In this document: positions 17,796 through 34,107 of the stretch, one piece after another | Layout of the letters: every line of letters begins with the position of its first letter | How positions within the stretch are numbered: position 1 is the first letter of the stretch | DNA from: an uncultured Sphingorhabdus sp. | Lineage (GTDB): Bacteria > Pseudomonadota > Alphaproteobacteria > Sphingomonadales > Sphingomonadaceae | Assembly (NCBI GenBank): GCA_947492905.1 | Contig: CANLOL010000001.1 | Span: forward strand, 1,466,578-1,530,577 | Reading direction: 5' to 3' | DNA: 64,000 nt | Notes under the pieces: model-generated | Databases searched by the model: none | Told to the model about the DNA's origin: nothing | The model's input: only the letters and a program-made list of their open reading frames with translations | Position numbers and translations under genes: made by a program

Positions 17796-17824
17796 TTAGT
17801 GCCAAGGAAAGCGAAAAAGGTTCA
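17796..17824 (-). promoter_or_regulatory. ECF-type promoter of the TPR/cytochrome c pair
   Basis: The minus strand has TGAACCTTTTTCGC (17824 downward) and ACTAA ending at 17796, 17 bases between TGAACCT and ACTAA. This matches the promoters at 30731-30759 and 34080-34107. Predicted start lies about 13 bases before the ATG. Confidence 0.6.
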
Positions 17825-17867
17825 TTTTTTATTCGTCAAAAACAATTAATTGGTTACACAAATATTT

Positions 17868-18839
17868 ATGAATTCACAAATCAAGAATATACGATCTTTT
17901 TTGCCCGACCCCTTTGTGCAATTGTTAATTATTACAATTTTGATTGCATCATTTTTACCCGTTTCAGGGAATAATGCAAAAATCGCAGCAATCATCAGCC
18001 AAATTGGTATATTTTCGCTTTTCTTTTTGAACGGCGTCCGATTGCCTAGACGCGAAGTGATAGAGGGCGTTCGAAATTGGCGTTTGCAAGGCAGTATTTA
18101 TATTTGGGTGTTCGCCATGATGCCGCTTATTGGATATATATTATCCCGCTTATCGGTTGATTTCATCCCTGAAACTCTCGCTATTGGATTGTTATTTTTA
18201 GGAGTGCTGCCATCGACTGTACAATCGGCAACAGCGTATAATTCTCTGGCCAATGGCAATGTTACTGCCTCTGTTATCGCTTCGGCTTTGCTCAACCTCA
18301 CAGGCGTGGTGGTTACGCCATTATTATTTGCAGCTATGGCGAGTGCATCGGGCGTGGTTATATCTTTGGAGAGTTTTTACCGCATTTGTCTAATATTATT
18401 GCTGCCCTTTTTCTTGGGGCAATATATGCAAAGCTATTTGGGTGAGTGGCTGAGTAAACGCAAAACATTGGTCACCTATATGGACCGCGGGGCAATTGCT
18501 ATTGCTGTATATGTAGCTTTTTCAGGGGCTGTTGTTGCTGGGATTTGGACGCGGATAACGCCAAGCGAATTTGCCATATTATTTGCTATATTAGCGATAT
18601 TCTTAAGCTTGGCATTTGGTGGTTCTTGGATAATGAGCGGCTTGATGCGCTTCAACATTAATGACCGTAAAGCTGTGTTATTTGCTGGAGCGCACAAAAG
18701 CTTGGCCATTGGCGCACCATTGGCTGCTATATTATTTCCGCCTGAAACAGCAGGAGTAATATTGCTGCCTATCCTCATCTATCATTTGGCGCAGTTGATC
18801 ATCTCTGCACCGATAGCAAATAGGCTTGCGCAAAAATGA
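17868..18839 (+). CDS. Bile acid:sodium symporter family transporter (SBF-like)
   Basis: A 323-residue integral membrane protein with about nine or ten spans. It has the family features: LPDPFVQLL near the N-terminus, FFLNGVRLPR, LFLGVLPSTVQSATAYNSLA and GAHKSLAIGAPLAAILFPP. It belongs to the YfeH/SBF-like branch of the BASS superfamily, which moves organic anions with sodium. Substrate unknown. ATG 17868 is my choice; an in-frame TTG at 17850 is the alternative, and neither has a clear ribosome site. It diverges from the TPR gene and ends 5 bp before the convergent permease gene. Confidence 0.88.
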   Translation: MNSQIKNIRSFLPDPFVQLLIITILIASFLPVSGNNAKIAAIISQIGIFSLFFLNGVRLPRREVIEGVRNWRLQGSIYIWVFAMMPLIGYILSRLSVDFIPETLAIGLLFLGVLPSTVQSATAYNSLANGNVTASVIASALLNLTGVVVTPLLFAAMASASGVVISLESFYRICLILLLPFFLGQYMQSYLGEWLSKRKTLVTYMDRGAIAIAVYVAFSGAVVAGIWTRITPSEFAILFAILAIFLSLAFGGSWIMSGLMRFNINDRKAVLFAGAHKSLAIGAPLAAILFPPETAGVILLPILIYHLAQLIISAPIANRLAQK

Positions 18840-18844
18840 TAGTG

Positions 18845-21352
18845 TTACAGGCTGCGCAGTGCGGATGCCGGACGTGCAGCTAATATCGGTAATGAACCAA
18901 TCATGCCCAATAAGAATGTCACTAATGCCCCACCAATAACGGTGAGGCCAACAATGAACATATTGGGCAAGAATGTGAATTCAAATATGTGAACAATCAC
19001 ATAATAAGCCGCAGCCATACCTATGCCAAAAGAGAGCAAGCTAATGATAGAGGCTAGCAAGAGATATTCGAGCGCTTGTGTGGTTAATATTTGACGGCGC
19101 GTAGATCCAAGCAATTTTAATATAACACTATCATATGTGCGGGCCATACGTGATGCGGCAATAGCACCTATTAGAACGGCTATACCGGCTAAAATTGATA
19201 TAGATGCTGCCGCTGCAATTGCTTTTGACATTTGTGATAATAATGTACTGATTTGCGAGACAATATCCTTCACCTTTATCAATGTTGATGAAGGGAAATT
19301 AGAAGGGATAATCTTTGACAATTCTGTTTCATTTTCCGCTGCGGTGGTGATGGTCGCTGTCATATTATGCGGCGCGCTATTCAATGATCCAGGAGAGAAT
19401 ATCATCGAGAAATTCAATCCAAAATTATCCCAATTCACTTTGCGGAATGAAGAAACTTCGGCTTCAAATTCTGCGCCTAAAATATTGATGACAATGACAT
19501 CGCCAAGCTTAAGGTCCAAAACCTCTGCCATATCTATATCGACGCTGACCAAGGGTTTTCCGCTATAATCTTGCGGCCACCATTCGCCTTCTAATATCTC
19601 GCTGCCATTTGGTAATATGGCTGAATAGGTTAAACCGCGATCACCGCGCAACACCCAAGCGCCTTCGGGTATTTCTTCTAATTCATCCACGCGCTGACCT
19701 GCATAAGACACTATGCTACCGCGCATGATAGGCACTAAATTAATATCAGCATCAGGGTCAATATCGCTAACGATTGTGTTGAATTTCTCGGCATCATCTT
19801 TTGGAACATCCAAAGCGAAAAAACTGGGCGCTTGTTCAGGAATATTCTTGCTAATCTCTGCATTAATACTGCTTTGGATAGCGGATAATGTGACAAATAA
19901 AGTCAGCCCTAAACCAAGGGCAACAACCAAAGCGCTGGTTTGCGCTCCGGGTCTATGTAAGTTGGTCAATGCTAAGCGGAATAAGGGGCGTTTAGGGCGA
20001 GGCACGCGGATTGCTACCATACGGATAATCCAAGCCACTAAGCTTAATATGCCCAGCAATAACAAAGCAGCAATGATAAATGCGAAAGAGAAAAATGGCT
20101 CTCGCGCCGTTAGAATAGCAATAGCGACAATTGCTAATGCGGCGGCTATTACCCAAAATAGGCTAGCTTTATCAAGCTTGGCCCAATGGCCTTGATTATT
20201 TCTGAATAAGCCTGCGGATGTGATGGTTTTTGCTTTTGATAGCGGGGGCAATGCAAATGCAATTGCAATTAACATACCATAGGCCGCGCTGACCAATAAG
20301 GGCAGGGGATATAGATTAAATCCTGGACTCACGGGTAATATATCTCCCGCAAAAAATGTTATCAGCAGCGGTAAAATGCTACCCATGAATAGCCCTGCCA
20401 AAACTGCTAGTCCGCCAACTAGCAATATTTGCATAAAATATATCCGAAAAATCACTCTACTATCGGCTCCTAATACTTTTAGGGTCGCAATAGATTTGCG
20501 CTTATTTTCAAGATAGCTAGCAACACCATTCCCAACGCCAATGCCCGCTATAACCAATGACGCAAGGCCAACTAAGGTAAGAAATTGTCCCATACGCTCA
20601 ATGAAGCGGCGCGTTCCGGGTGCGCCATTTGAACGATCTGTGATGCGCCAACCTGCTTGCGGATATTCTTCATTTAATCGCTCGCTGATGGATATAATAT
20701 CGTCAACACCATTGGTTTTAATGCGATATTTGGCTCTATAGAGGCTGCCTGGTTGGATAAGCTTGGTGCTTTCTAAGGATTGCATATTGATAAGCGCTAC
20801 TGGCCCAAGCGTAAAACCTTCGCCCAATCGATCTGGTTCTTCGGCGATGACACCCGCAATTCTGAAATCAGCTTCGCCAAATGAAACGCTGTCACCAATT
20901 TGCAATCCCATTTGATCGGATAATGTATCACCGACAAATATCTCGCCAATGGCTGGCGCAGATACGCTACGTCCGTCTTTTAATGTTAGCGCGCCATAGA
21001 GCGGATAAGCATTATCAATGGCTTTTAGTTCCGAGAGTAGATTTTTATCAGGCGAATTGGCCATCGCACGCAGGCGAACCGTTTGCGATAATTCCCCTAC
21101 TTCTTCAAAGCTTTTAATTTCATCTTCGCTAGCCAATCTCTGCGAGACGGATATTTCAATATCTCCGCCCAATATGGTTTGACCGCGTTTGGATAATTCA
21201 TCCCCTATGCCAGCGATTAAACTGCCAATGGCGGCTAAAGTTGCAACGCCGAGGAATAAGCATACTACCAGCAAACGTAATCCGCGAATACGCGCATTCA
21301 TGTCTCGGCGCGAAATTTTCCATATATTAGCTAAGGATAGTTGATTGCTCAC
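18845..21352 (-). CDS. ybbP: FtsX-family ABC transporter permease (YbbP type)
   Basis: An 835-residue inner-membrane protein with two MacB/FtsX permease modules: a first span at about 25-45, a large periplasmic domain (50-245), three spans at about 255-375, two more at about 395-445, a second periplasmic domain and three final spans with GMIGSLPILAARPASALRSL at the end. This ten-span layout is that of YbbP. It follows the ATPase gene by only 2 bases and forms its membrane half. The pair is divergent from a TesA-like gene as in E. coli. Its substrate is not established; such exporters act on the outer leaflet or periplasm rather than on nutrient uptake. Confidence 0.88.
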   Translation of the reverse strand: MSNQLSLANIWKISRRDMNARIRGLRLLVVCLFLGVATLAAIGSLIAGIGDELSKRGQTILGGDIEISVSQRLASEDEIKSFEEVGELSQTVRLRAMANSPDKNLLSELKAIDNAYPLYGALTLKDGRSVSAPAIGEIFVGDTLSDQMGLQIGDSVSFGEADFRIAGVIAEEPDRLGEGFTLGPVALINMQSLESTKLIQPGSLYRAKYRIKTNGVDDIISISERLNEEYPQAGWRITDRSNGAPGTRRFIERMGQFLTLVGLASLVIAGIGVGNGVASYLENKRKSIATLKVLGADSRVIFRIYFMQILLVGGLAVLAGLFMGSILPLLITFFAGDILPVSPGFNLYPLPLLVSAAYGMLIAIAFALPPLSKAKTITSAGLFRNNQGHWAKLDKASLFWVIAAALAIVAIAILTAREPFFSFAFIIAALLLLGILSLVAWIIRMVAIRVPRPKRPLFRLALTNLHRPGAQTSALVVALGLGLTLFVTLSAIQSSINAEISKNIPEQAPSFFALDVPKDDAEKFNTIVSDIDPDADINLVPIMRGSIVSYAGQRVDELEEIPEGAWVLRGDRGLTYSAILPNGSEILEGEWWPQDYSGKPLVSVDIDMAEVLDLKLGDVIVINILGAEFEAEVSSFRKVNWDNFGLNFSMIFSPGSLNSAPHNMTATITTAAENETELSKIIPSNFPSSTLIKVKDIVSQISTLLSQMSKAIAAAASISILAGIAVLIGAIAASRMARTYDSVILKLLGSTRRQILTTQALEYLLLASIISLLSFGIGMAAAYYVIVHIFEFTFLPNMFIVGLTVIGGALVTFLLGMIGSLPILAARPASALRSL

Positions 21353-21354
21353 GG

Positions 21355-22062
21355 TTAAGATGCATCCTCAACCACTTTGCCATCATGCATAGTGATGACT
21401 CGATCACAATGTTTCGCAAGCGCAGGGTCATGGGTGATAATAAGCAATGTGGCATTCAATGCTTTTTGCCGTTCGAACAAAATATTGATAATGGAATCGC
21501 CCGTTGTTGCGTCTAAATTTCCCGTTGGTTCATCTGCAAAAATGATCGAAGGACGCGCGGCCATCGCTCTAGCAATAGCAACGCGTTGTTGTTCGCCGCC
21601 TGATAATTGGGTGGGATAATGGGTCATGCGGTGGCCCAAGCCGACCGCTTCTAATTCTTCTTTGGCGCGATCAAAAGGATTATCAATACCCGCCAATTCC
21701 ATGGGGACGGCAACATTTTCAATCGCGCTCATCGTTGGTAATAGGTGAAATGCTTGCAACACAATCCCAATGCGTCCGCGCCGCGCACGGGCCAATTCAT
21801 CTTCGTTAAGGGCAACAAAATCTAATCCATCGATCAATATTTGACCGCTATTGGCTTGCTCTAAGCCAGATAATACCGCCATGAGCGAGCTTTTTCCTGA
21901 ACCAGATGGGCCAAGTAATGCAACGCTGCTACCTGCGTTAATCTCTAAATCAACGCCGCGTAATATGTTGACGGGGGCCTCTTTTGTGCCCAAGCTTAAT
22001 GTCACATTTTTCGCATTAATAGCTATTGTTTCGGATGCGTTATCGTTATTAGTGTCAGGCAT
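21355..22062 (-). CDS. ybbA: ABC transporter ATPase (YbbA/LolD type)
   Basis: A 235-residue ATPase with Walker A GPSGSGKSS (about residues 44-52), signature LSGGEQQRVAIARAM, Walker B IIFADEPTGNLD and H-loop ITHD. Length and motifs fit the LolD/FtsE/MacB branch that works with FtsX-like permeases. ATG 22062 is chosen because MPDTNN opens the conserved protein; the longer frame runs through the tesA gene on the other strand. It begins 17 bp from the tesA start, so the two genes share a very small divergent control region. Confidence 0.93.
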   Translation of the reverse strand: MPDTNNDNASETIAINAKNVTLSLGTKEAPVNILRGVDLEINAGSSVALLGPSGSGKSSLMAVLSGLEQANSGQILIDGLDFVALNEDELARARRGRIGIVLQAFHLLPTMSAIENVAVPMELAGIDNPFDRAKEELEAVGLGHRMTHYPTQLSGGEQQRVAIARAMAARPSIIFADEPTGNLDATTGDSIINILFERQKALNATLLIITHDPALAKHCDRVITMHDGKVVEDAS

Positions 22063-22079
22063 GATATAGGAGATTTCCA

Positions 22080-22829
22080 GTGATACGAATTTTTGCTCAA
22101 TATGGGGTGCTATTATTCTTTGTCCAGATGCTATTTGCATGCAGCGAGACAAATCAGAATTTAAATGAAGAAAAAAGCACTACTATTAGCAGCGATGCAA
22201 GCAATGCTAATACTGCCAATGACATTAAGAAACAGACGAATAACACTGAAATCAAAGAAAAATTAATCGTGGCCTTTGGCGATAGCCTCTATGCTGGCTA
22301 TGGGCTTGATAGTGGAGATGGATTAGCACCAGAATTAGAGCGTCAATTGGATGCGGGTGGGGCCTCTATTAATGTTCACAGCGCTGGCGTATCCGGAGAT
22401 ACAACGGCTGCTGGATTAAACCGTTTAGTTTTTGTTTTGGATAATCTGAAACGCAAACCTGATATGGTTTTGGTTGGTCTTGGCGGCAATGACATGCTGC
22501 GCGGCATTGGTCATGAGCAAACCAAGGCCAATTTAACGGCAATATTGGAAGAATTGAAGAAACGTGATATCCAACCCATGCTAACGGGAATGATAGCAGC
22601 TCCCAATTTAGGGGCGGATTATGCGAATGCGTTTAATCCAATTTTCCCCGAATTAGCAAAAAAATATGATGCTCCGCTTGATCCGTTCATTTTGGATGAA
22701 GTGGTTACCAATCCTTCTCTCATGCTGCCTGATGGCATTCATCCGACCGCAGAAGGCATTGACATCATTGCAAAACGCCTAGCTCCAACTATTGCAAAAA
22801 CATTGGGACAACCTTTTGATAATCAATAA
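22080..22829 (+). CDS. tesA: TesA-like SGNH esterase, predicted lipoprotein
   Basis: A 249-residue SGNH/GDSL hydrolase. Block I is FGDSLYAGYG, block III is GLGGNDML and block V is LPDGIHPTAEG, giving the Ser-Asn-Asp-His set of TesA (arylesterase, lysophospholipase and thioesterase activities). The signal ends LFAC at residue 21, a lipobox, so it is probably lipid-anchored, unlike E. coli TesA. A Ser/Asn/Thr-rich linker covers residues 22-55. It starts with GTG at 22080 with AGGAGA before it. The divergent ybbA-ybbP neighbours repeat the E. coli tesA-ybbAP layout. Confidence 0.9.
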   Translation: MIRIFAQYGVLLFFVQMLFACSETNQNLNEEKSTTISSDASNANTANDIKKQTNNTEIKEKLIVAFGDSLYAGYGLDSGDGLAPELERQLDAGGASINVHSAGVSGDTTAAGLNRLVFVLDNLKRKPDMVLVGLGGNDMLRGIGHEQTKANLTAILEELKKRDIQPMLTGMIAAPNLGADYANAFNPIFPELAKKYDAPLDPFILDEVVTNPSLMLPDGIHPTAEGIDIIAKRLAPTIAKTLGQPFDNQ

Positions 22830-22861
22830 ATATTTATAATCTTAAAAAATAAAACTGATCG

Positions 22862-22885
22862 ACTGTCTTATTTTTATAAGACAGT
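22862..22885 (+). terminator. Hairpin after the tesA-like gene
   Basis: ACTGTCTTAT (22862-22871) and ATAAGACAGT (22876-22885) pair perfectly around a four-T loop. Only three T follow, so it may be a weak terminator or an operator in the 131-bp gap before the TelA gene. Confidence 0.5.
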
Positions 22886-22960
22886 TTGTCGAGATTAGCT
22901 TGAAAAATAATCGCTTTCGTCCCATCTTAATAGAATAATATTTCTATCTAAGGACATAGC

Positions 22961-24163
22961 ATGGCCACGCAAACAGCAACTGAAACTGAATTAAAATTAA
23001 CACCGCCAGACCCTGTACCTGTGGTCGCTAAAGAAAAAGCGATGGGTTTGGTTCCTGTTACTGATGAACAAAAATCAAAATTGGAAACCAAAGTTGATGC
23101 GTTCGTTAATGATTTGGTGGCGCAAGATGCTAAATCCCCAGAATTTGGCAAGCGCGTTGACCAGCTTACCAACATGGGACGCCGCGAAATAGTGGAGGCC
23201 GCTGGCCAATCAAACCGATTTTTGGATCGTCCTGTTCGTTCTATGGATGAGGGCTCAACCGTTGGCACTGATTTAGCAGAACTTCGCCGCACGGTAGAGG
23301 ATTTGGATCCTTCGAAACGCGGTAATCTGCTGGCCCCAAGAAAGTTATTTGGCATCATTCCTTTTGGGAATAAATTGCGCAATTATTTTGATGGCTATAA
23401 AACTGCACAAAGCCATATTAGCTCTATCTTAGAACGTCTGGCCGGTGGTAAAGATGAGCTGCTGATGGACAATGCAGCGATTGATGTCGAACGTCAAAAT
23501 CTCTGGACGGCTATGGGCAAGCTTGAACAAATGATCCATATGTCAAAAGCATTGGATGCAAAGCTTGAAGCAAAAGCCAATGAGTTGGATGCTAGCGACC
23601 CTGAAAAAGCGCGCGCTATCCGAGATACGGCTCTATTCTATGTGCGCCAGCGCACCCAAGATTTACTCACGCAAATGGCAGTAACAGTGCAGGGGTATCT
23701 TGCCCTTGATTTGGTAAAGAAAAATAATGTGGAGTTGGTCAAGGGGGTCGATCGCGCTTCTACTACCACAGTTGGCGCATTGAGAACAGCTGTGACAGTT
23801 GCACAAGCGATGACCAATCAAAAATTGGTGTTGGAACAAATCACCCAATTGAATACGACTACGGCCAATATCATTGATGGTACAGGCAAGATGATGCGCG
23901 AAAATACGGCATTAATCCATGAACAAGCGGCGGCCTCGACTATACCGCTTGAAACGCTCAGCCAAGCCTTTACCAATATTTATCAAACTATGGATGAGAT
24001 AGATAGTTTTAAGGTGAAAGCTCTGGAAAATATGAAGCAAACCGTTGGGGCGCTTGAATCTGAAGTTGAAAAATCAAAAGGTTATATTGCGCGCGCCGAG
24101 GGGCAGGCTCAGGCTGGTAAGCAAGTTGAAGATAGCGGATTATTGGCGGCACTTGACGGATGA
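22961..24163 (+). CDS. TelA/KlaA family protein (toxic-anion-resistance family)
   Basis: A 400-residue soluble, mostly helical protein of the TelA family. Conserved blocks include LLAPRKLFGIIPFGNKLRNYF (about 125-145), SHISSILERLAGGKDELLMDN and the C-terminal YQTMDEIDSFKVKALENMKQT coiled-coil part. The family name comes from plasmid tellurite resistance, but chromosomal copies are linked more widely to membrane or stress functions. AAGGAC precedes the ATG. The stop overlaps the next ATG by 4 bp, so the two proteins are co-produced and may act together, like the TelA/XpaC pairs elsewhere. Confidence 0.88.
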   Translation: MATQTATETELKLTPPDPVPVVAKEKAMGLVPVTDEQKSKLETKVDAFVNDLVAQDAKSPEFGKRVDQLTNMGRREIVEAAGQSNRFLDRPVRSMDEGSTVGTDLAELRRTVEDLDPSKRGNLLAPRKLFGIIPFGNKLRNYFDGYKTAQSHISSILERLAGGKDELLMDNAAIDVERQNLWTAMGKLEQMIHMSKALDAKLEAKANELDASDPEKARAIRDTALFYVRQRTQDLLTQMAVTVQGYLALDLVKKNNVELVKGVDRASTTTVGALRTAVTVAQAMTNQKLVLEQITQLNTTTANIIDGTGKMMRENTALIHEQAAASTIPLETLSQAFTNIYQTMDEIDSFKVKALENMKQTVGALESEVEKSKGYIARAEGQAQAGKQVEDSGLLAALDG

Positions 24164-24876: not shown

Positions 24877-24921
24877 ATCACTCTAAGCTTTTCCTGCTAA
24901 TCTCTAAAATTTAATATAGTC

Positions 24922-24955
24922 AAAAAAAGCCGGCTGATTTTCATCAACCGGCTTT
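24922..24955 (-). terminator. Rho-independent terminator of the autotransporter gene
   Basis: AAAGCCGG (24926-24933) and CCGGCTTT (24948-24955) pair around a 14-base loop; on the minus strand seven T follow the stem. It also separates the convergent TelA operon. Confidence 0.88.
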
Positions 24956-24982
24956 CCCGAGTAGTCATGTTTGTTTCAAGAC

Positions 24983-27900
24983 TTAGAACGCGAAACGAAC
25001 AGTGACACCACCCGTATGGGATTGATAATCAGATGCGAAGCGACCCTGATATTCTGCTGCAATGCTGAACCCATTATTGTTCACTAGGTCAAGACCGGCA
25101 CCAACGTCAAAACGCGAGTCAGATGCACTGTTTGATGTTATGCGGAAAACGTCCGCACCAGCATTGAAGCTCCCATTTATGCCAACACCGTCTCCGATGA
25201 GGTCATAAGTGTAAGCAACGCGAAGGAAAGGAACTACTGATAAGTCCTTATCTTCATCGGCTTGTCCTGAAATTCCAAGACCGATTGATGCTTCTAGGAA
25301 ATCGGTACCGTCTCCTTCTAATGTAAAGCCAAGACCGCCAGATTCAGTTAATCCATCTTGAGAAATTGCTGCATAACGAAGTCCAGCAAATGGTGTGAAG
25401 GCAACTTTATCATTACCTAAGTTTAAACCACCATTAACCGAAGCAATAAAGCTATCTGAATCAGCATCGCTAGAAACAGGACCAATTATGCTGTTACGAC
25501 TGCTCTCAACATCGTTGATTGAGTAACCCAATTCGGCGTTAACATAAGCTTTATCAGAATTTACTCCAACATAAGCTGAGAATTGATAAGCACCGATAGA
25601 GCTTTGCGCTTGCGCTGCACCATCTGAGTCCACATCAATATCCGCATAGCTGAAGAAAGCACCGACTTTAGCATTTTCGCCAACTTGTGCGTCGGCACCA
25701 AGAGTGAAACCTGTTGCTTCTGCTTCATACCCAACGCTGCTGAGGCTCTCAGCATCACGATCGGATGTGCGGAAGAAGATTTGACCCCAGATACCTGTGC
25801 TATCACCAGCAAGGCGATCTGTTAACAAAGAGCTAGCAAAACGTTGAGTTTCAAATATTTCACGAGCAACACCATCGTTAATCGCAGGGAGTAAACCGAT
25901 AGCTGCTGTTTCAAATTCTGTTGCAGACGATAAATTGTTTAGGGCAGTGAATGCGTCCGCTTGCAATCTATTATTTGCTACTGCGCTGGTTAGAGCAGCG
26001 CCAAAGTTTGAAATATTTTCATCAGCAGATAGCTGCGATAAATCAGTAGCTGCTACATCAACGATGATGGAACCAAGAACAACATTATAGTCAATCAAGA
26101 AATCATCTTCAAAGACATTGACGGTTACGCCATTATCAGTGAAACTTCCAGTCTCGGTTACAATGTCAATGCTTCTTCCGACATCAGCTTGCGTGATTTG
26201 ATCGGTGGTTACATTCACAACGCTATTAGCACCAAATACGGTGTCACCATCAACTGCCAATGAATCAACATCTAAGTCGAAATTCAATGTGCCGTTAGAA
26301 GTGAAATTACCATCAATTGCGCGAACACCATCGATTGTCACTGTGGCTGTTTCACCGACCACAACATCTACATCACCGACGACATCGCCGCTTAATGTTG
26401 ATGAACCATCAGCAAATGTTAGCGTATCAGTGAATGCTGAACCAATGAAGTCTCCAGCCAATGAACCGTTGCTTTGAATGAAGTCCAAAGCGGATAGAGC
26501 TGTTGAAGCGTCTACAGACGCAGGACCTACCAATGAACCATTATTTATAAATGTACCAGTAAAGGCAACATTTTCAATTAATAGAGCAGGGCCAGTTTCT
26601 GATGAAATGGTTCCGTTATTAACAATGTCTTCTGTTACTGTAACAGTTGTTCCAGCGCCAGCGCCGTTGAATAACCGAAGACCAGCAGAAGCTCCAGAGT
26701 CTAGTGCTTCACCACGTCCAGCAATTGTTCCATCATTCACTAATGTGAAGCTACGAACATCGCCATCGGTAGTACCAACTTGAATAGAGACACCAGAACC
26801 TTGTACGACTGCGTCGATTGTTCCTGTGTTGTTCAAGGTGAAATTGTTGGCTGTTCCATCAGCATAGGCAGTACCGTTGCGCTGTGCTCCTGTACCCAAG
26901 ATTGAACCGCTATTGTTCACGGTCAAACCTGTTCCATCAATGTTCAGCGCACGGCTGCCTGATGAAATGAGGCCTGAGTTGTTTACAACAGCACCGGTGA
27001 AATCACCGCCGCCTGCTGGAGTCGCATTACCGAAGTAAAGACCATTTTGAACACCAGAGATTGTTCCTGAGTTATCGATTGTTCCAGAGAAGCTAACGCC
27101 GTTCACAAAACGGATACCCGCAGTTGTGCCGCTGTCGCCTTCTGAATCGATCAGACCAGAGTTGTTGATTGTTCCTGTGAACAAACCAGAGGTTGTGCCA
27201 TCAAGAAGACCATCAACACGCGCACGTTCGAAACGGATACCGTCACCAGCAAGCGGTGAACCTGCTCCAGCAGTACCACGGCCTAGAATTGCACCAGAGT
27301 TGATGATGTCAAAATTATTGCCTTCTTCTGATAGTTCAGCAGAGAAACCAGCACCTTGATTGCCAACACCAGTATCGATCAGACCAGCATTGTTCAATGT
27401 GAAGTCTTGCGCAGTGCTATCGGCATAAACCGTACCATTGCGTTGATCGCCTGTACCGATGATTTGACCACCAACAAGGTTGTTAACAACTAGACCCAAA
27501 CCATCAATGTTCAGCGCACGGCTGCCTGATGAAATGATACCAGAGTTATTTACAACAGCACCGGTGAAATCACCGCCGCCCGCTGGAGTCGCATTACCGA
27601 AGTAAAGACCATTTTGAACACCAGAGATTGTGCCTGAGTTATCGATTGTTCCAGAGAAGCTAACGCCGTTCACAAAGCGGATACCAGCTGTTGTGCCGCT
27701 GTCACCTTCTGAATCGATTAGACCAGAGTTGGTGATTGTTCCAGTGAATAAACCAGAGGTTGTGCCATCAAGAAGACCATCAACGCGCTCACGCTCGAAA
27801 CGGATACCGTCACCAGCAAGCGGTGAACCTGCACCAGCAGTACCGCGGCCTTGGATTGTGCCAGAGTTGATGATGTCAAAATTATTGCCTTCTTCTGATA

Positions 27901-30661
27901 GTTCAGCAGAGAAGCCAGCACCTTGATTACCTTCACCAGCATCAATCACGCCTTCATTGTTTAATGTGAAGTCTTGCGCAGTGCTATCGGCATAAACCGT
28001 ACCATTGCGTTGATTGCCTGTACCGATGATTTGACCACCAACAAGGTTGTTAACAACTAGACCCAAACCATCAATGTTCAGTGCACGGCTGCCTGATGAA
28101 ATGATACCAGAGTTATTTACAACAGCACCAGTGAAATCACCGCCGCCTGCTGGAGTAGCATTACCGAAGTAAAGACCATTTTGAACACCAGAGATTGTGC
28201 CTGAGTTATCGATTGTTCCAGAGAAGCTAACACCGTTCACAAAACGGATACCCGCTGTTGTACCGCTGTCGCCTTCTGAATCGATCAGACCAGAATTGGT
28301 GATTGTTCCTGTGAACAAACCAGAGGTTGTGCCATCAAGAAGACCGTTAACACGCTCACGCTCGAAACGGATACCGTCACCAGCAAGCGGTGAACCTGCA
28401 CCAGCAGTACCGCGGCCTTGGATTGTGCCAGAGTTGATGATGTCAAAATTATTGCCTTCTTCTGATAGTTCAGCAGAGAAGCCAGCACCTTGATTACCTT
28501 CACCAGCATCAATCACGCCTTCATTGTTTAATGTGAAGTCTTGCGCAGTGCTATCGGCATAAACCGTACCATTGCGTTGATTGCCTGTACCGATGATTTG
28601 ACCACCAACAAGGTTGTTAACAACTAGACCCAAACCATCAATGTTCAGTGCACGGCTGCCTGATGAAATGATACCAGAGTTATTTACAACAGCACCAGTG
28701 AAATCACCGCCGCCTGCTGGAGTAGCATTACCGAAGTAAAGACCATTTTGAACACCAGAGATTGTGCCTGAGTTATCGATTGTTCCAGAGAAGCTAACAC
28801 CGTTCACAAAACGGATACCCGCTGTTGTACCGCTGTCGCCTTCTGAATCGATCAGACCAGAATTGGTGATTGTTCCTGTGAACAAACCAGAGGTTGTGCC
28901 ATCAAGAAGACCGTTAACACGCTCACGCTCGAAACGGATACCGTCACCAGCAAGCGGTGAACCTGCACCAGCTGTACCACGGCCTTGAATTACGCCATCA
29001 ACATTATTGATAATAGTAAAGTTATTGCCTGCTTCTGAAAGTTCAGCAGAGAAACCAGCACCTTGATTGCCTGCACCAGCATCAATCAAATTGTTGTTTT
29101 CAAGAGTGAAGTCTTGCGCAGTACTATCGGCATAAACCGTACCATTGCGTTGATCACCAAGGCCCAAGATTGAGCCGTTATTTTGGATATTAAGGCCCAA
29201 ACCATCAATGTTTAGTGCACGGCTTTCAGAAGAGATTGTTCCATTGTTTTGGACAAAGGAACCAGTGAAATCACCGCCGCCCGCTGGAGTAGCATTACCG
29301 AAGTAAAGACCATTTTGTGTACCGGTTAATGTGCCATTGTTGGTCAATGTACCAGAGAAGCTAACACCATTTACAAAACGAATACCAGCAGCTGTGCCTT
29401 GTTCGCTAAATGATTGTATCAATCCATTGTTGGTGATGCTGCCTGTAAATAGGCCTGTTGTTGAACCGTCGAGCATACCATTTACACGCTCACGTTCAAA
29501 ACGAAGTCCATCACCAGCTAGGGGTGAGCCAGCACCAGCTTGGCCACGGCCAAAAATAGCACCGTTATTTACGATGGTGAAATCATTGCCTTCTGCTGAT
29601 AGTTCAGCAGAGAAACCAGCACCTTGATTGTCTTCACCGGCATCAACAAGACCATTGTTAGTGAAAACAAACCCTTGGGCTGTGCTATCAGCATAGACCG
29701 TACCATTGCGCTGATTACCAGTGCCAACGATTGAACCATTGTTATTAACTTCAAGGCCCAAACCATCAATGTTTAGCGCACGGCTGTCAGATGAGATTGT
29801 TCCAAAGTTATTAACTACGCCGCCGCTATGGTCAGCATCATTGCCAAAATATAAACCATTTTGAGCACCTGAAATTAAACCATTGTTATTTAAAGTACCC
29901 TGAAAACCAACTCGATTAGCAAAACGAATACCAGCAACAGTACCTTGTGTACTCTCACTGGTTATTGAACCATTGTTGGTGATATCACCTGCATATATAT
30001 ATTGAGGTACTAGTCCAGGGCCAAAAAAGCGAATACCATCACCAGCTGTACCGCCTGAAGCCGCCGCTTGGCCGCGTCCATTAATTGCACCGTTGTTGAT
30101 GATAGCACCTGTGATAGGTGCGCCGCCGCCGCCTACTTCTATGGCAACGCCTGCGCCTTCTACAACAGCATCAATTACACCATTATTGTTAATGCTAAGA
30201 TTGTCAGATGTTCTATTGCCATAAACAGTGCCATTGCGTTGGCTGCCTGTACCTAAAATCTGACCATTATTATTGATGACAACATTATCACCATCCACAT
30301 TAATAGCGCGCGAGTCTGCAGTTATAAAACCGGTAGCGCCATTGTTGATAATAGCGCCGCTTGTATCTGCGTTGACTTGTACGGTTTGGGTGACGCCTGT
30401 TGTGGCTAAAGAGCCATCATTTTGCAAAGTAACATCATTATTTCCAATTTCTACTGCTGGATTGTCAGCAACTAATACGACATTACCGGCAGGGTTGCTG
30501 ATGGTCTCACCGTCTGCTTGGCTGATTGTTGTTGTAGTAGTGCCATTTGCAATTACTTGTTGTGCATGCGCTTGTGCACTTATCAACATAGCCGCAGCTG
30601 AAGTTGATGTTAGCAATATGCGCTGTAAATTAGCACTCTTCCTATTCTCTTGGGGTTTCAT
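24983..30661 (-). CDS. Giant autotransporter with tandem-repeat passenger
   Basis: A 1892-residue type Va autotransporter. The signal peptide has the long basic form (MKPQENRKSANLQRILLTST, ending AHAQ). The passenger, about residues 35-1500, is rich in Asn/Gly with N-N-G-x-I steps typical of a beta helix. It contains seven units of about 189 residues, each with QRNGT[VA]YxD near its start and NGLYFGNATPAGGG later; units four and five are nearly identical in DNA. The last ~280 residues are the translocator barrel (GIWGQIFFRTSDRD to GGVTVRFAF, ending in Phe as BAM substrates do). The Cys-free passenger suggests a surface adhesin or matrix protein. The gene has its own ECF-type promoter and terminator. 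Confidence 0.92.
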   Translation of the reverse strand: MKPQENRKSANLQRILLTSTSAAAMLISAQAHAQQVIANGTTTTTISQADGETISNPAGNVVLVADNPAVEIGNNDVTLQNDGSLATTGVTQTVQVNADTSGAIINNGATGFITADSRAINVDGDNVVINNNGQILGTGSQRNGTVYGNRTSDNLSINNNGVIDAVVEGAGVAIEVGGGGAPITGAIINNGAINGRGQAAASGGTAGDGIRFFGPGLVPQYIYAGDITNNGSITSESTQGTVAGIRFANRVGFQGTLNNNGLISGAQNGLYFGNDADHSGGVVNNFGTISSDSRALNIDGLGLEVNNNGSIVGTGNQRNGTVYADSTAQGFVFTNNGLVDAGEDNQGAGFSAELSAEGNDFTIVNNGAIFGRGQAGAGSPLAGDGLRFERERVNGMLDGSTTGLFTGSITNNGLIQSFSEQGTAAGIRFVNGVSFSGTLTNNGTLTGTQNGLYFGNATPAGGGDFTGSFVQNNGTISSESRALNIDGLGLNIQNNGSILGLGDQRNGTVYADSTAQDFTLENNNLIDAGAGNQGAGFSAELSEAGNNFTIINNVDGVIQGRGTAGAGSPLAGDGIRFERERVNGLLDGTTSGLFTGTITNSGLIDSEGDSGTTAGIRFVNGVSFSGTIDNSGTISGVQNGLYFGNATPAGGGDFTGAVVNNSGIISSGSRALNIDGLGLVVNNLVGGQIIGTGNQRNGTVYADSTAQDFTLNNEGVIDAGEGNQGAGFSAELSEEGNNFDIINSGTIQGRGTAGAGSPLAGDGIRFERERVNGLLDGTTSGLFTGTITNSGLIDSEGDSGTTAGIRFVNGVSFSGTIDNSGTISGVQNGLYFGNATPAGGGDFTGAVVNNSGIISSGSRALNIDGLGLVVNNLVGGQIIGTGNQRNGTVYADSTAQDFTLNNEGVIDAGEGNQGAGFSAELSEEGNNFDIINSGTIQGRGTAGAGSPLAGDGIRFERERVDGLLDGTTSGLFTGTITNSGLIDSEGDSGTTAGIRFVNGVSFSGTIDNSGTISGVQNGLYFGNATPAGGGDFTGAVVNNSGIISSGSRALNIDGLGLVVNNLVGGQIIGTGDQRNGTVYADSTAQDFTLNNAGLIDTGVGNQGAGFSAELSEEGNNFDIINSGAILGRGTAGAGSPLAGDGIRFERARVDGLLDGTTSGLFTGTINNSGLIDSEGDSGTTAGIRFVNGVSFSGTIDNSGTISGVQNGLYFGNATPAGGGDFTGAVVNNSGLISSGSRALNIDGTGLTVNNSGSILGTGAQRNGTAYADGTANNFTLNNTGTIDAVVQGSGVSIQVGTTDGDVRSFTLVNDGTIAGRGEALDSGASAGLRLFNGAGAGTTVTVTEDIVNNGTISSETGPALLIENVAFTGTFINNGSLVGPASVDASTALSALDFIQSNGSLAGDFIGSAFTDTLTFADGSSTLSGDVVGDVDVVVGETATVTIDGVRAIDGNFTSNGTLNFDLDVDSLAVDGDTVFGANSVVNVTTDQITQADVGRSIDIVTETGSFTDNGVTVNVFEDDFLIDYNVVLGSIIVDVAATDLSQLSADENISNFGAALTSAVANNRLQADAFTALNNLSSATEFETAAIGLLPAINDGVAREIFETQRFASSLLTDRLAGDSTGIWGQIFFRTSDRDAESLSSVGYEAEATGFTLGADAQVGENAKVGAFFSYADIDVDSDGAAQAQSSIGAYQFSAYVGVNSDKAYVNAELGYSINDVESSRNSIIGPVSSDADSDSFIASVNGGLNLGNDKVAFTPFAGLRYAAISQDGLTESGGLGFTLEGDGTDFLEASIGLGISGQADEDKDLSVVPFLRVAYTYDLIGDGVGINGSFNAGADVFRITSNSASDSRFDVGAGLDLVNNNGFSIAAEYQGRFASDYQSHTGGVTVRFAF
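26850..30250. repeat. Array of seven ~567-bp repeats in the autotransporter gene
   Basis: The coding repeat has a 567-bp period: the same GTTGTTAACAACTAG block begins at 27479, 28046 and 28613. Units at about 27390-29090 are the most alike, with long stretches identical; outer units are more diverged. The period is a multiple of three, so unit gain or loss keeps the frame. Confidence 0.9.
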
Positions 30662-30730
30662 ATATAAAACTTCCTATTTTGTGAACAATGGGGGTTTAAA
30701 TCGTTAAAGATTTTAATCCTTAACGATTTG

Positions 30731-30759
30731 TTAGAGTCCATCGTTTCCAAAAAGGTTCA
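30731..30759 (-). promoter_or_regulatory. ECF-type promoter of the autotransporter
   Basis: The minus strand reads TGAACCTTTTTGG from 30759 downward, then TCTAA ending at 30731, with 17 bases between TGAACCT and TCTAA. This fits the general ECF pattern of a GAAC-type -35 and TCTNA-type -10. The leader to the ATG at 30661 is about 60 bases. Confidence 0.62.
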
Positions 30760-30830
30760 AATTTATTTCATTTTTTTTAATAAAATAATATTGAAATAAG
30801 TTATCGCAGTTTTGCCATTGCGAAATGATA

Positions 30831-31541
30831 TTAAAAACTTCTACTGACACCCAGAATGATTGCATCTCTTAGGCGCCATGGGCCGCTGAAATAAGTACCA
30901 CCACGATCGCCACCATAATTGATGCTGGCGTTAATGCTCCATAGGTCAATATCTTTGGAGACACCCAAGCTTAAGTCATAACGCGAGCTGCGTTCACCCA
31001 GAGAACCAGAACCACCGACTTGTTGCAGTAAACCTGCATGGCCTAATATATTAAAGCCATCTCCTAACCTATGAACGGTATCGACTTCTACATAGATGGT
31101 TTGCGCATCTAGCTCTTGAAAGTTTGGGGAATAGCGCACTCGGCCAGTTAGGTTTTTATAGGATAGCCCAGAATGAAATTCGACAAATGTGTCATTGGCC
31201 ATTCCAGTATAACGATCAGTATAAGCCGTCACTGTTGCGCCTGTGTCTATTGAGATATTGGTATCAAGGTTTTTCGCATATCCGATTAACCCAACAAAAG
31301 ATAATGGTCCTTGGTTTTGCTCGCCAATTGTGAATGCAACTGTCGTGCCGCCATAAATACCGCTCTTATCATCATAAGATAAACTGCCAGAAATAACCGG
31401 TTGGCCTTGGCTTATTGAACGGCCCCTAAACCAGCTATCAGTCTCTGCGGTTATAGCACCGCTCACTTGAGCATGACTAGGTTGAGCAGAAATGGCAAAA
31501 AAGCTTGCTGATATAATATAAGCAAGACTTGATTTTATTTT
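30831..31541 (-). CDS. TorF-like outer-membrane beta-barrel protein, start codon missing
   Basis: An open frame of 236 residues: signal peptide KIKSSLAYIISASFFAISAQ...HAQ, then a barrel-like body starting VSGAITAETDSWFRGRSISQ, which follows the TorF/TIGR02001 porin pattern, and ending RDAIILGVSRSF with the terminal Phe of outer-membrane proteins. No ATG, GTG or TTG is in place. The ATG at 31543-31545 is followed by TAA, the protease stop; without one extra T (complement of 31542) it would read ATG AAA ATA AAA, that is MKIKSS. A frameshift, a sequencing error, a rare start (ATA 31538) or coupled re-initiation are all possible. The longer overlapping frame from 31730 has no sensible signal. It is the last gene of the ECF operon. 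Confidence 0.7.
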   Translation of the reverse strand, partial: KIKSSLAYIISASFFAISAQPSHAQVSGAITAETDSWFRGRSISQGQPVISGSLSYDDKSGIYGGTTVAFTIGEQNQGPLSFVGLIGYAKNLDTNISIDTGATVTAYTDRYTGMANDTFVEFHSGLSYKNLTGRVRYSPNFQELDAQTIYVEVDTVHRLGDGFNILGHAGLLQQVGGSGSLGERSSRYDLSLGVSKDIDLWSINASINYGGDRGGTYFSGPWRLRDAIILGVSRSF

Positions 31542-32742
31542 ACATAAGTGAGGCTTTTGCGTCGATGATGAAACGGCTGTTCGATGTTGTCGCGATAGAC
31601 CGGCAATTTCTTGCAGCTGTTTTGCGGCACTCTTGCATAAGCGCAAGAAGGCCGCTGACGTGCGCCGCAGCATAAGAGCTGCCATCCGCAAGATGCCATT
31701 TTCCGCCAGGTCGTGTTGTTGGTATTCCATTTCCAGGAGCTTTAAAACCTCTACTCATACTATACGATTCTCCATCGCTAGAAACCGCAATAACCTGTTT
31801 ATGCGATGCTGGAAAGCCACCAGATGGTAATTTTTTATTATAAGCAGCAACTATTGTTATATTTCTGTTAGTTGCAGTATCAATTAATTGCGATAATAGT
31901 CTACTTGTAGGGCCTCCAAGGCTTAAATTTATTATATCAACGCGCTTTTCTACAGCATAATTTAACGCTCTAGCGAGGCTGAGCGTATTACAAATTGATT
32001 GTTGATTGCTTTTATTTTGCCAACAAGCCCTTAGACCCAAAAGTTTAGCATTGGGAGCAACGCCTGCGATCCCAATACCATTATTTGCTTTTGCACCAAT
32101 GACTCCAGCAACGCCTGTTCCATGAAGTTCGGCGTTGCTATTGGCCATTGGTGTGAAATTTTTGAACGAAGCAATTCGTCCTCTTAAATCAGGATGGTTG
32201 CGTTCAATTTGTGTATCAACAACAGCGATTGAAACATTTCGACCTGTCCATTTGCTGTGGAGGTCCGCTATTTTCCATTTTTGTCCCGCAGGAGAAACAG
32301 AGTAGAGCGGATCATTATAAGTGCGTTGGGATGTTAATACACCATAATCTTCCATAGGTTCTGCCCAAGAGACGCGCTTATCAGCTGATAATTGTGTGAT
32401 TAGTTCATCAATCTTCATCGTTGATGGAACGTTCATGATAAAACATTCAATTCCCATGAGTGGCATTGGCCAATTATCAACAAATTCTAAGCCATATTTC
32501 TTTGCAATAGATTTCCCTAATTTCTGACGGACAGCTTTTTGGCGCGCATTGCCATATCCAGCGCTATAGGTAGAACCTGCACGAAGATGATTGGCTGGCA
32601 AATCCATCATAACCATGATTTGATATGGTTTATTGTCTTGTGATTCTTGTTGTGCTGTTGCGTTTGAATTAATTCCGTTGATAGCAAGCCAACTTGCAAG
32701 GGCGAGTGCTATTGCAAGGATTATATAATGAACTAATTTCAT
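31540..32742 (-). CDS. Subtilisin-like (S8) serine protease
   Basis: A 400-residue exported protease. A leader of about 30 residues ends NATAQQ, then a prodomain of about 110 residues (ends near SWAEPMEDYGVL). The catalytic domain has Asp in IAVVDTQIERNHPDL, His in ELHGTGVAGVIGA and Ser in DGSSYAAAHVSG. It probably works in the periplasm or outside. Its stop is the TAA that follows ATG at 31543, directly at the start of the beta-barrel gene. It lies third in the operon after the ECF sigma factor and anti-sigma factor with a 6-bp gap, and may degrade or sense unfolded surface proteins or cleave the anti-sigma factor; those roles are inference. Confidence 0.9.
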   Translation of the reverse strand: MKLVHYIILAIALALASWLAINGINSNATAQQESQDNKPYQIMVMMDLPANHLRAGSTYSAGYGNARQKAVRQKLGKSIAKKYGLEFVDNWPMPLMGIECFIMNVPSTMKIDELITQLSADKRVSWAEPMEDYGVLTSQRTYNDPLYSVSPAGQKWKIADLHSKWTGRNVSIAVVDTQIERNHPDLRGRIASFKNFTPMANSNAELHGTGVAGVIGAKANNGIGIAGVAPNAKLLGLRACWQNKSNQQSICNTLSLARALNYAVEKRVDIINLSLGGPTSRLLSQLIDTATNRNITIVAAYNKKLPSGGFPASHKQVIAVSSDGESYSMSRGFKAPGNGIPTTRPGGKWHLADGSSYAAAHVSGLLALMQECRKTAARNCRSIATTSNSRFIIDAKASLM

Positions 32743-32748
32743 AGCTTG

Positions 32749-33450
32749 TTACTCCGCACTGATAGGCTCAGCTAATAATATGTTTTCGTCAGAACGCAAA
32801 TTATCTAATGTAACATCATTTGAAATTTTGACCATATAAGCATTGGTTGATGTTGGTCCAGAAACGATCTGAATATTATTACGGGCTAAAAGTGCGTTAA
32901 ATTCTTCTAATGTAAGAGAAGGATTAAATTGCATAATGGTATTAGCGCCTTTTTCAACAGTGGCTTCGCCGCTGCTCAAAGTGCCATATATTTGATTATC
33001 TTCTTCACCAATATTGGTAATAGTATCAACATTGGGTGTTGAGATAAGTGCTACTAATGCAGCAGCTTGCGCAACAGCTATGAAACCTAGAGTTTTCGGT
33101 TTGGTAATGGCTGTTTTTGCTTTGTTGAAAAGAGGAAAGCGAATGACATTAGAAGGGGGTGGGGTAATATCATCACTTTCCTCCAGTTCGATTGAATCAG
33201 AGTGATCCAAATCAAAACTTGTAAGGCCTTTTTGAAATGCTTCCCAATTGGAAGGGATTTCATTGACTTCGCTATCTTGAATAAGAGCAGCGATTTTGCT
33301 CTCTTCTTCAACCAGCTTTGCGCAATCTGCACAATTATCAATATGTTGTTGAACTGTTGCAGTTTCCTTTTCGGACAATTGATTTGTTACAAACCAAGGA
33401 ATTAATGCTTCAATTTGCGTATCGCATAAATTTTTCATACTCTGTGTCAT
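32749..33450 (-). CDS. Zinc-finger anti-sigma factor with periplasmic prodomain-like domain
   Basis: A 233-residue single-pass protein. Residues 1-45 form a zf-HC2 anti-sigma domain (QQHIDNCADCAKLVEEE gives His-x3-Cys-x2-Cys). An acidic linker follows, then a membrane span at about 118-138 (GFIAVAQAAALVALIS). The C-terminal ~90 residues end LTLEEFNALLARNNIQIVSG, then PTSTNAYMVKIS...LAEPISAE, resembling the propeptide-like domains that bind subtilases. It should hold the ECF factor at the membrane until signalled. AGGAATT lies before the ATG; 9 bp separate it from the sigma gene. The neighbouring S8 protease has a similar prodomain, which hints at a direct contact. Confidence 0.85.
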   Translation of the reverse strand: MTQSMKNLCDTQIEALIPWFVTNQLSEKETATVQQHIDNCADCAKLVEEESKIAALIQDSEVNEIPSNWEAFQKGLTSFDLDHSDSIELEESDDITPPPSNVIRFPLFNKAKTAITKPKTLGFIAVAQAAALVALISTPNVDTITNIGEEDNQIYGTLSSGEATVEKGANTIMQFNPSLTLEEFNALLARNNIQIVSGPTSTNAYMVKISNDVTLDNLRSDENILLAEPISAE

Positions 33451-33459
33451 ACTTAATTC

Positions 33460-34059
33460 CTATAACCAATCTGCAATCTCGCCGCCGAGATTCTTTTTAA
33501 GTTGGCGTCTTGCATGGAACATTCTTGTTTTTACTGTATCCACCGGACATTCCATGATTGCCGCGATGTCGCTATAATGAAGGCCCTCGAAATATGTCAG
33601 GCTGATAACTGTGCGATGTTCATAAGATAATGTCTCCATCGCATTGTTTAATAATTGTCTTAAGCGTCCTTGTTCTAGTGCGTCTTCCGTATCATTTTCT
33701 TCTATATTCTGTAATGCAGCCTCATCTGATAGAGGTTCATCAATTTTCGACCTTGCTCTAATTGCTTTTCGGTAAGCGATAGCAAATATCCAGGTTGATA
33801 ATTTACTGGCTCCTGCAAAGTCTCCGATTTTCTGCCAAACCACCATCATTGTATCGTTAAAGACTTCTTCTACAACTTGTGGTTTGCTCACCATATTGGC
33901 GATAAAATGTGATAATTTCTTTCTATATTCCTCGTATAAATCTTCAAATGCTTGCATATCTCTATTGATTAAGCGTTTTATAAGCGCAGCTTCGCTATGT
34001 TCAGCAAGTGCTGAATTTGGCGAAAATGCTATATCATTCATTGGCTTAATCTCATTCAT
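33460..34059 (-). CDS. ECF-family RNA polymerase sigma factor
   Basis: A 199-residue group 4 sigma factor. Region 2 runs at about residues 40-105 (YEEYRKKLSHFIANMV...DTMMVVWQKIGDFAGASKLSTWIFAIAYRKA) and region 4 at about 135-190 (LSYEHRTVISLTYFEGLHYSDIAAIMECPVDTVKTRMFHARRQLK). A short basic tail follows. It directs polymerase to the GAAC-type promoters seen at 17796, 30731 and its own 34080. The start is either MNEIKPMND (34059) or the Met six codons on; neither has a strong ribosome site. It heads a four-gene operon with its anti-sigma factor, the protease and the barrel protein. Confidence 0.93.
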   Translation of the reverse strand: MNEIKPMNDIAFSPNSALAEHSEAALIKRLINRDMQAFEDLYEEYRKKLSHFIANMVSKPQVVEEVFNDTMMVVWQKIGDFAGASKLSTWIFAIAYRKAIRARSKIDEPLSDEAALQNIEENDTEDALEQGRLRQLLNNAMETLSYEHRTVISLTYFEGLHYSDIAAIMECPVDTVKTRMFHARRQLKKNLGGEIADWL

Positions 34060-34079
34060 TTAACTAGCGTCTTACTTAC

Positions 34080-34107
34080 TTAGTACATCGTTTGCGAAAA
34101 AGGTTCA
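34080..34107 (-). promoter_or_regulatory. Autoregulated ECF-type promoter of the sigma operon
   Basis: The minus strand has TGAACCTTTTTCGCAAACG from 34107 downward and ACTAA ending at 34080, with 16 bases between TGAACCT and ACTAA. The first 11 bases equal those of the other two sites. The predicted leader is very short. The rest of the 244-bp gap to the plus-strand Ppx gene shows nothing else. Confidence 0.62.

Follow-up and report, generated by a model that had tools for sequence, protein, structure and literature searches.

Extracytoplasmic function (ECF) sigma factor systems are a main bacterial means of sensing trouble in the cell envelope, and for many ECF groups we know of no described signal or path by which it is conveyed. 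In enterobacteria, the sigma-E system consists of RpoE, RseA and DegS/RseP, with the small RNAs MicA and RybB. Here, we analysed a 64,000-nucleotide stretch of an uncultured Sphingorhabdus sp. (the window; assembly GCA_947492905.1, contig CANLOL010000001.1, positions 1,466,578 to 1,530,577 of the forward strand) carrying an operon for an ECF sigma factor, a membrane anti-sigma factor, a subtilase and a putative porin. Among described systems, group ECF54 has a subtilase noted in its genetic context and is one of the ECF groups proposed to be under the control of proteolysis, according to PMC8999054. For small RNAs, PMC10746234 and PMC10253847 describe, respectively, NfeR1, with three hairpins bearing an identical CCUCCUCCC motif and a sigma-70 promoter, and CcsR1-4, which share a single RpoHI/RpoHII promoter with the DUF1127 gene ccaF1 and are transcribed together with it.

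We consider it likely that the operon's sigma factor governs a single surface or envelope regulon and is freed through the adjacent subtilase, and that this regulon includes a giant autotransporter, further exported proteins and small RNAs, all preceded by a promoter related to the 11-mer TGAACCTTTTT. The anatomy of the system and the assignment of its promoters were computed, and we infer which signal acts, how the protease intervenes and what the RNAs target. The regulon may answer envelope stress, as had been suggested by an earlier reading of the same DNA (hereafter, the original prediction).

An anti-sigma factor with a propeptide-like domain is encoded beside a subtilase

The sigma factor (P0001) contained only sigma-70 regions 2 and 4 in about 200 amino acids (aa), as expected of an ECF factor, with a predicted autoregulatory promoter ahead of it and a zf-HC2 anti-sigma gene 9 bp downstream (computed). 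The anti-sigma factor (P0002) comprised a cytoplasmic zf-HC2 domain, one likely transmembrane helix (judged by eye) and a periplasmic C-terminal domain at approximately residues 168-233. The D/H/S triad of the adjoining subtilase (P0003) was present by eye in alignments.

Structural comparison suggested that the C-terminal domain of the anti-sigma factor has a propeptide fold, with Z of at most 7.9 and modest model confidence. AlphaFold2 (AF2) modelled its last 65 residues as beta-alpha-beta-beta-alpha-beta, with a predicted local distance difference test (pLDDT) score of 66-79 per ten-residue block across residues 171-230. The first four Foldseek rows were subtilisin- or furin-bound propeptides. 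By our reading, the first 29 of 50 VIA-align rows were subtilase propeptides, N-terminal pro-parts of longer chains, or POIA1 (Z 7.9 to 5.9, 59-67 residues, root-mean-square deviation 2.0-3.4; the first unrelated row also scored 5.9), some of which (for example, 8c4x_B and the Aspergillus protease chains) were assigned by chain length and range, not title. At the sequence level, the fervidolysin prodomain PF22148 was matched in 7/10 anti-sigma homologues (E up to 0.1, best 1.6e-8), and of two homologues scanned singly, one was above the cut-off (24.7 vs 21) and one below it (16.4). Several observations weigh against this interpretation. The AF2 model was built on three sequences and had a mean pLDDT of 44, the Foldseek E-values were weak (best 0.023), and VIA-align itself cautions that a Z score below 8 may reflect an arrangement common to many proteins. 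P0002 itself gave no PF22148 match, and its domain gave no sequence match to the prodomain of the neighbouring subtilase (hhalign Prob 0.4), and direct sequence homology between these two was rejected. A separate fold search with the subtilase model, which was too poor overall (pLDDT 41.9), returned no clear propeptide row.

The pairing of this domain with a subtilase gene recurred in other genomes. Anti-sigma matches were found in 8/199 genomes of the family, this genome included, and the operon order of sigma factor, zf-HC2 anti-sigma factor, S8 subtilase and Gcw_chp/TorF porin recurred among them. Across eight loci from the other seven family genomes, the subtilase was present in all eight, an orthologous sigma gene in seven (not L064) and the porin in seven (L063 showed none); L061 has a rearranged gene order. 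The distantly homologous subtilases of three loci (L057, L059 and L060) have Asp after AAY/AAI/AAF where the window protein has Asn, at what we take to be the usual subtilase oxyanion-hole Asn position. In the class survey, 72 of 385 genomes matched the anti-sigma profile, and 30 matches were examined: that of the genome itself, 14 reaching profile position 200 or beyond (in L126 and L127, through a segment of the C-terminal half) and 15 that stop short of position 150 and mostly cover the zinc-finger end. When flanks of 1,500 bases were considered, a subtilase adjoined 13/14 anti-sigma factors with the C-terminal domain matched versus 0/15 without it (Fisher 2e-7), whereas an ECF sigma gene adjoined 13/14 and 13/15, respectively. 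Therefore, in the examined sample, the subtilase tracks the propeptide-like domain and not zf-HC2 anti-sigma factors generally.

A second pair was found in the same genome (L142 2229-4534, G000:C1:2264728-2267033), in which a diverged anti-sigma-like gene stands directly before an S8 subtilase gene. The anti-sigma-like protein lacks the zinc ligands (by eye), falls under the zf-HC2 cut-off, and aligns over 202 columns, those of the C-terminal part among them (for one target, hhalign Prob 90 and E 1.6e-6). This pair follows a Dyp-peroxidase-like gene, and its subtilase has a C-terminal hydrophobic stretch. A TGAACCTTTTT site without a -10 element (L006) lies about 1.2 kb past the subtilase gene, and another ECF sigma gene (L143 2928-3473) is about 7 kb off.

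We propose that, at rest, the anti-sigma factor would tether the sigma factor at the membrane, and its propeptide-like domain would dock in the active site of the periplasmic subtilase and inhibit the protease, as propeptides do. An envelope signal would disturb the pair and free or activate the subtilase, which, perhaps together with further proteases, would cut the anti-sigma factor and release the sigma factor. An equally simple alternative is that the regulon is real and the anti-sigma factor restrains the subtilase as a downstream effector, with another protease of the DegS/RseP type freeing the sigma factor. Propeptides and POIA1, which the anti-sigma domain resembles, are inhibitors, the domain ends at the C-terminus of the protein as a propeptide does, and we infer, rather than observe, cleavage by the subtilase. 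The gene pairing (13/14) fits the effector and cleavage explanations equally, and overall we regard the effector explanation as the less likely of the two.

A shared promoter motif recurs ahead of orthologous sigma genes

Exactly three copies of TGAACCTTTTT were present in the window (17814-17824, 30749-30759 and 34097-34107, all on the minus strand). These lie upstream of the tetratricopeptide repeat (TPR) gene, the autotransporter gene and the sigma operon, as the original prediction had placed them, and its claim that the window holds no other intergenic match was borne out. Dinucleotide shuffles of the window contained 0.08 copies on average, and 0/100 reached three. The predicted gap of 16-17 bases was incorrect: ACTAA or TCTAA begins 12 bases past the 11-mer at the sigma operon and 13 bases past it at the autotransporter and TPR genes, so that TGAAC and the -10 element are separated by N18 ahead of the sigma gene and N19 ahead of the other two (Table 1). 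Because of this gap, the genome-wide search that had been proposed (TGAACCTTTTT-N16-18-CTAA) would miss all three sites. With N12-15-CTAA, the 11-mer gave 5 matches in the 2.59 Mb genome versus 0 for the reversed control. The 11-mer alone occurred 7 times versus 2 for its reversed control, and a looser pattern, TGAACNTTTN15-17CTAA, 7 times versus 2.

Outside the window, the promoter form was found upstream of genes for a 151-aa exported protein (L015, kept in the relative G234) and an exported DUF547 protein (L016), and at two tandem sites, 309 bases apart, between genes that we take to be clpA-like and bioF-like. The members were predicted to be exported proteins without exception; the protein members do look exported, judged by eye from signal-peptide-like starts, but two members are the small-RNA genes at the tandem sites. 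A fixed-spacing search with TGAACNTT-N16-NCTMA yielded 8 matches versus 5 for the control in this genome, 4 versus 2 in G233, 7 versus 2 in G234 and 6 versus 4 in G192. The N18 sigma promoter cannot match this N19 pattern. The closeness of the controls to the matches (5 vs 8 in this genome) weighs against the proposed regulon. Six of the 8 matches in this genome were known sites and two were opposite genes, and therefore no further convincing member emerged here. Matches inside or opposite reading frames were dropped (L110, L111, L097, L102, L109, L039, L040, L041 and L047, and in G192 L098, L101, L103, L107 and L108). In G192, L105 was an intergenic match without a T-run. In G234, TGAAC-N19-ACTAA stands ahead of an exported protein with repeat-like, autotransporter-type sequence (L104 1501-3028, G234:C10), which had no Pfam match in the part available and is a possible extra regulon member.

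We assessed the same promoter in related genomes. The closest named relatives of the sigma gene were from uncultured Sphingomonadaceae and Sphingorhabdus; they coincide with G234, G233 and G192 and so add no evidence. Gene-specific spacing was kept at 16 hand-picked sites in four genomes, with N18 before the sigma gene in 4/4 and N19 before the other genes (the list omits the TPR and small-RNA sites of G192 and does not cover the TPR and L015 orthologues of G233). Among 45 genomes of the genus, TGAACYTTTTN{13,16}CTAA gave 7, 3 and 3 matches in the three operon-bearing genomes, a single match in G192 and a total of 3 in the remaining 41, which have neither anti-sigma factor nor sigma remnant; the reversed pattern matched 6 times across all 45. 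One of the three matches in G233 and two of the three in the other 41 genomes lie inside the same kind of open reading frame (ORF, ~310 aa), and the remaining one is opposite an ORF. The single match in G192 is the old sigma promoter: there, a deletion (L019 6016-6991, G192:C3) has fused about the first 114 residues of the sigma factor to the last 213 of the autotransporter, which start at its residue 1680. Genes for the anti-sigma factor, subtilase and porin are gone, and the flanking synteny is intact. The deletion is either an assembly fault or a natural knock-out. The -10 element of the TPR promoter has changed to ATCAA in G192.

At greater distance, TGAAC was found within 100 nt upstream of the sigma gene or first operon gene at 7/8 family loci (expectation 0.076 per 100 nt); after 19 bases it is followed by A[CT]N[AG]A at five of the seven and by ATTCA at two. 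In L061 the first operon gene behind TGAAC encodes an anti-sigma factor, and L064, with no true sigma orthologue, has no motif. At class loci with a sigma gene, TGAAC stood upstream in 7/13. All seven are followed at N19 by A[CT]N[AG]A, a -10 form chosen after these sites were seen, versus 1/72 other TGAAC there.

Autoregulation of the ECF sigma factor from a motif shared with exported-protein genes, as originally predicted, is thus well supported by recurrence of the motif at orthologous genes and by the sigma orthologues. We assign the window promoters to this sigma factor because the motif recurs upstream of its orthologues in family and class, the best available evidence that it reads them. 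A different ECF sigma factor with a similar motif might instead read these promoters, the operon's own factor reading them partly or never. At least one more ECF sigma gene (L143, identified with Pfam) is present in this genome, ~7 kb from the paralogous anti-sigma-like/subtilase pair and ~11 kb from another TGAACCTTTTT site, and G192, its sigma gene deleted, retains a motif-like TGAAC-N19-ACTAA ahead of its small RNA. However, the position of the motif before orthologues of this particular sigma gene, and its near absence from the 41 genus genomes lacking both anti-sigma factor and sigma remnant, make such a factor improbable. Although two of the seven genomic 11-mers lack the -10 part (L007, opposite a gene, and L006, upstream of an exported-protein gene), a chance or repeat-borne likeness is scarcely credible and was rejected on the shuffles, the reversed-pattern controls and the recurrence of site and spacing upstream of orthologous genes in other genomes.

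Once released, the operon's sigma factor would raise its own operon, yielding more protease, more brake and more porin, and would also raise the autotransporter, the TPR/CxxCH pair, other exported proteins and the small RNAs.

Predicted tandem small RNAs with C-rich loops

At each tandem site, CTAA is followed by 6 bases and then ~210 bases predicted to form a stem-loop at the 5' end, two hairpins whose loops are C-rich (CCCCUCCCCCCCC and CCUCCCCCUCCUCCCCC in copy A) and a terminator hairpin that carries a T-run. Each of the two copies has a motif of its own, four stem-loops and a terminator. No ORF of at least 50 aa was found between the flanking genes, where both RNAs lie. By blastn, the small RNA occurred in 3/45 genus genomes, the same three that have the anti-sigma factor (Fisher p 7e-5, kinship ignored), which are probably close relatives. 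In G234 and G233 a single copy occupies the corresponding position and carries its own TGAACTTTT...GTAACT[A/C]A. Across four sequences, 6 of the 54 predicted pairs showed a double change.

A covariance model detected the RNA in 4/397 family genomes (this genome, G192 and, weakly, G331 and G213), a sample in which inclusion of G233, G234 and module-bearing genomes other than G003 was not shown. The G331 and G213 matches were rejected, as inspection of the 200 bases upstream revealed no motif and the neighbourhood gave no tblastx match. Two further model matches in this genome lay in the same region but on the other strand. In Rfam, the two copies matched only alpha-r14 (RF02344), and weakly, with 18.6 bits (E 0.44) and 18.5 bits (E 0.46), far short of the gathering score of 58.8.

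The C-rich loops may mask Shine-Dalgarno sequences and thereby lower translation of other mRNAs, perhaps those of outer-membrane receptors, a role read from the loops by likeness to NfeR1 as described in PMC10746234. In duplex predictions, the loops showed stronger pairing to the start regions of receptors than to those of window genes (p 0.0014; 13 of 17 TonB-receptor plug matches vs 46 window genes, with L084, L086, L088 and L096 dropped for missing or unclear starts). This support is weak, and several results tell against the proposed role or the place of the RNAs in the module. The duplex test was unspecific, with the ribosomal anti-Shine-Dalgarno sequence (p 0.014) and reversed loops (p 0.0036) also favouring receptors. 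Strong-seed targets (GGGGAGG-N3-10-ATG) were found at 8 sites versus 4 in the control and were rejected as candidates; only two of the eight opened a frame >25 aa, so outer-membrane targets are unsupported by this route, and neither gene, presumably for a transporter-like protein and ribosomal protein L4, is outer-membrane. Eight of the 54 predicted pairs were broken in one of the four sequences, a tally without a slid or shuffled pair control. In G192, where the sigma operon is deleted, a diverged RNA persists in the same place behind TGAAC-N19-ACTAA and has no C+T run. Outside the genus, the RNA gave one weak, unconvincing match (G331), and it is therefore not a general part of the module.

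Other features of the window

The coordinates of the operon, the other regulon genes and their promoters are given in Table 1. The true start of the porin ORF is probably internal. The autotransporter ends in a PF03797 beta-domain, as in type V autotransporters, although full-length scans did not report PF03797. Small ORFs with starts 567 bases apart (27630-29627) mark long tandem repeats in its passenger. The inverted repeat at the start of its 5' untranslated region (UTR) has a similar layout in two relatives, and a stretch ahead of the start codon is conserved in three genomes; further control at the RNA level is possible. The gene originally described as encoding cytochrome c does contain a CNSCH motif, but no Pfam match rose above the cut-off (CCP_MauG sub-threshold, E 0.14). 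A chemotaxis-receptor gene (13994-15751), between the CxxCH gene and a bipA-like gene, is absent from this place in G234.

Table 1. Positions in the window of predicted regulon genes, promoters and associated elements.
Feature	Coordinates	Strand	Evidence
Sigma operon promoter, TGAAC-N18-ACTAA (TGAACCTTTTTCGCAAACGATGTACTAA)	34080..34107	-	Motif search; N18 kept in G234, G233 and G192
ECF sigma factor, 199 aa (P0001)	33460..34059	-	Sigma70_r2 and Sigma70_r4_2 above cut-off
Anti-sigma factor, 233 aa (P0002)	32749..33450	-	zf-HC2 above cut-off
S8 subtilase, 400 aa (P0003), signal-peptide-like start	31540..32742	-	PF00082, E 4.7e-31
Gcw_chp/TorF-family putative porin (ORF)	30831..31730	-	PF09694 and TIGR02001 above cut-off
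Autotransporter promoter, TGAAC-N19-TCTAA	30731..30759	-	Motif search; kept in G234 and G233
Inverted repeat, start of autotransporter 5' UTR	30698..30729	-	Sequences and fold of window copy
Giant autotransporter, 1892 aa, C-terminal beta-domain	24983..30661	-	PF03797, E 1.2e-41, last 305 aa
TPR gene promoter, TGAAC-N19-ACTAA	17796..17824	-	Kept in G234; -10 changed in G192
Exported TPR-repeat protein, 312 aa (P0006)	16837..17775	-	Several TPR models above cut-off
Exported CNSCH (haem c-type) protein, overlaps TPR gene, GTG start	15881..16858	-	Translation

Comparison with known systems

Each part of this system is of a known kind. A propeptide-like anti-sigma factor with its own subtilase was not found as a combination in searches of open-licence papers, which do not include the main ECF reclassification; the latter may already list the subtilase neighbourhood. 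We judge the chances about even that this is an undescribed form of ECF control, scattered across Alphaproteobacteria, in which a membrane-anchored subtilisin-propeptide anti-sigma factor and its own subtilase form a periplasmic complex whose state sets sigma activity, and which here also fires an anti-Shine-Dalgarno RNA pair. A propeptide-like anti-sigma factor beside its own subtilase points to a concrete sensing device, and the motif TGAAC-N19-ACNRA may allow the regulon to be read in many genomes.

Unlike ECF54 as described in PMC8999054, the window system has a zf-HC2 anti-sigma factor with a propeptide-like domain. The small RNAs resemble alpha-r14/NfeR1 (RF02344) as alphaproteobacterial stem-loop RNAs whose loops carry CCUCC-type anti-Shine-Dalgarno runs, but they have two C-rich hairpins and a 5' hairpin without a C-rich loop, which differs from NfeR1 as described in PMC10746234. 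Like the Rhodobacter CcsR/cuckoo RNAs, which are stress RNAs, they are tandem homologous alphaproteobacterial RNAs predicted to be under an alternative sigma factor; unlike those RNAs as described in PMC10253847, both copies have an ECF-type promoter of their own and, without an ORF of at least 50 aa between the flanking genes, no co-transcribed DUF1127 gene. With the enterobacterial sigma-E system, the locus shares an ECF sigma factor, a membrane anti-sigma factor, suspected control by a periplasmic protease, autoregulation, and a regulon of envelope genes and small RNAs. It differs in that the anti-sigma factor combines zf-HC2 with a periplasmic domain resembling a propeptide, and in having a subtilase as the adjacent protease. 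Its small RNAs also differ, being siblings whose loops are C-rich, and their link to the regulon may be this lineage's parallel to the sigma-E/small-RNA arm of enterobacteria.

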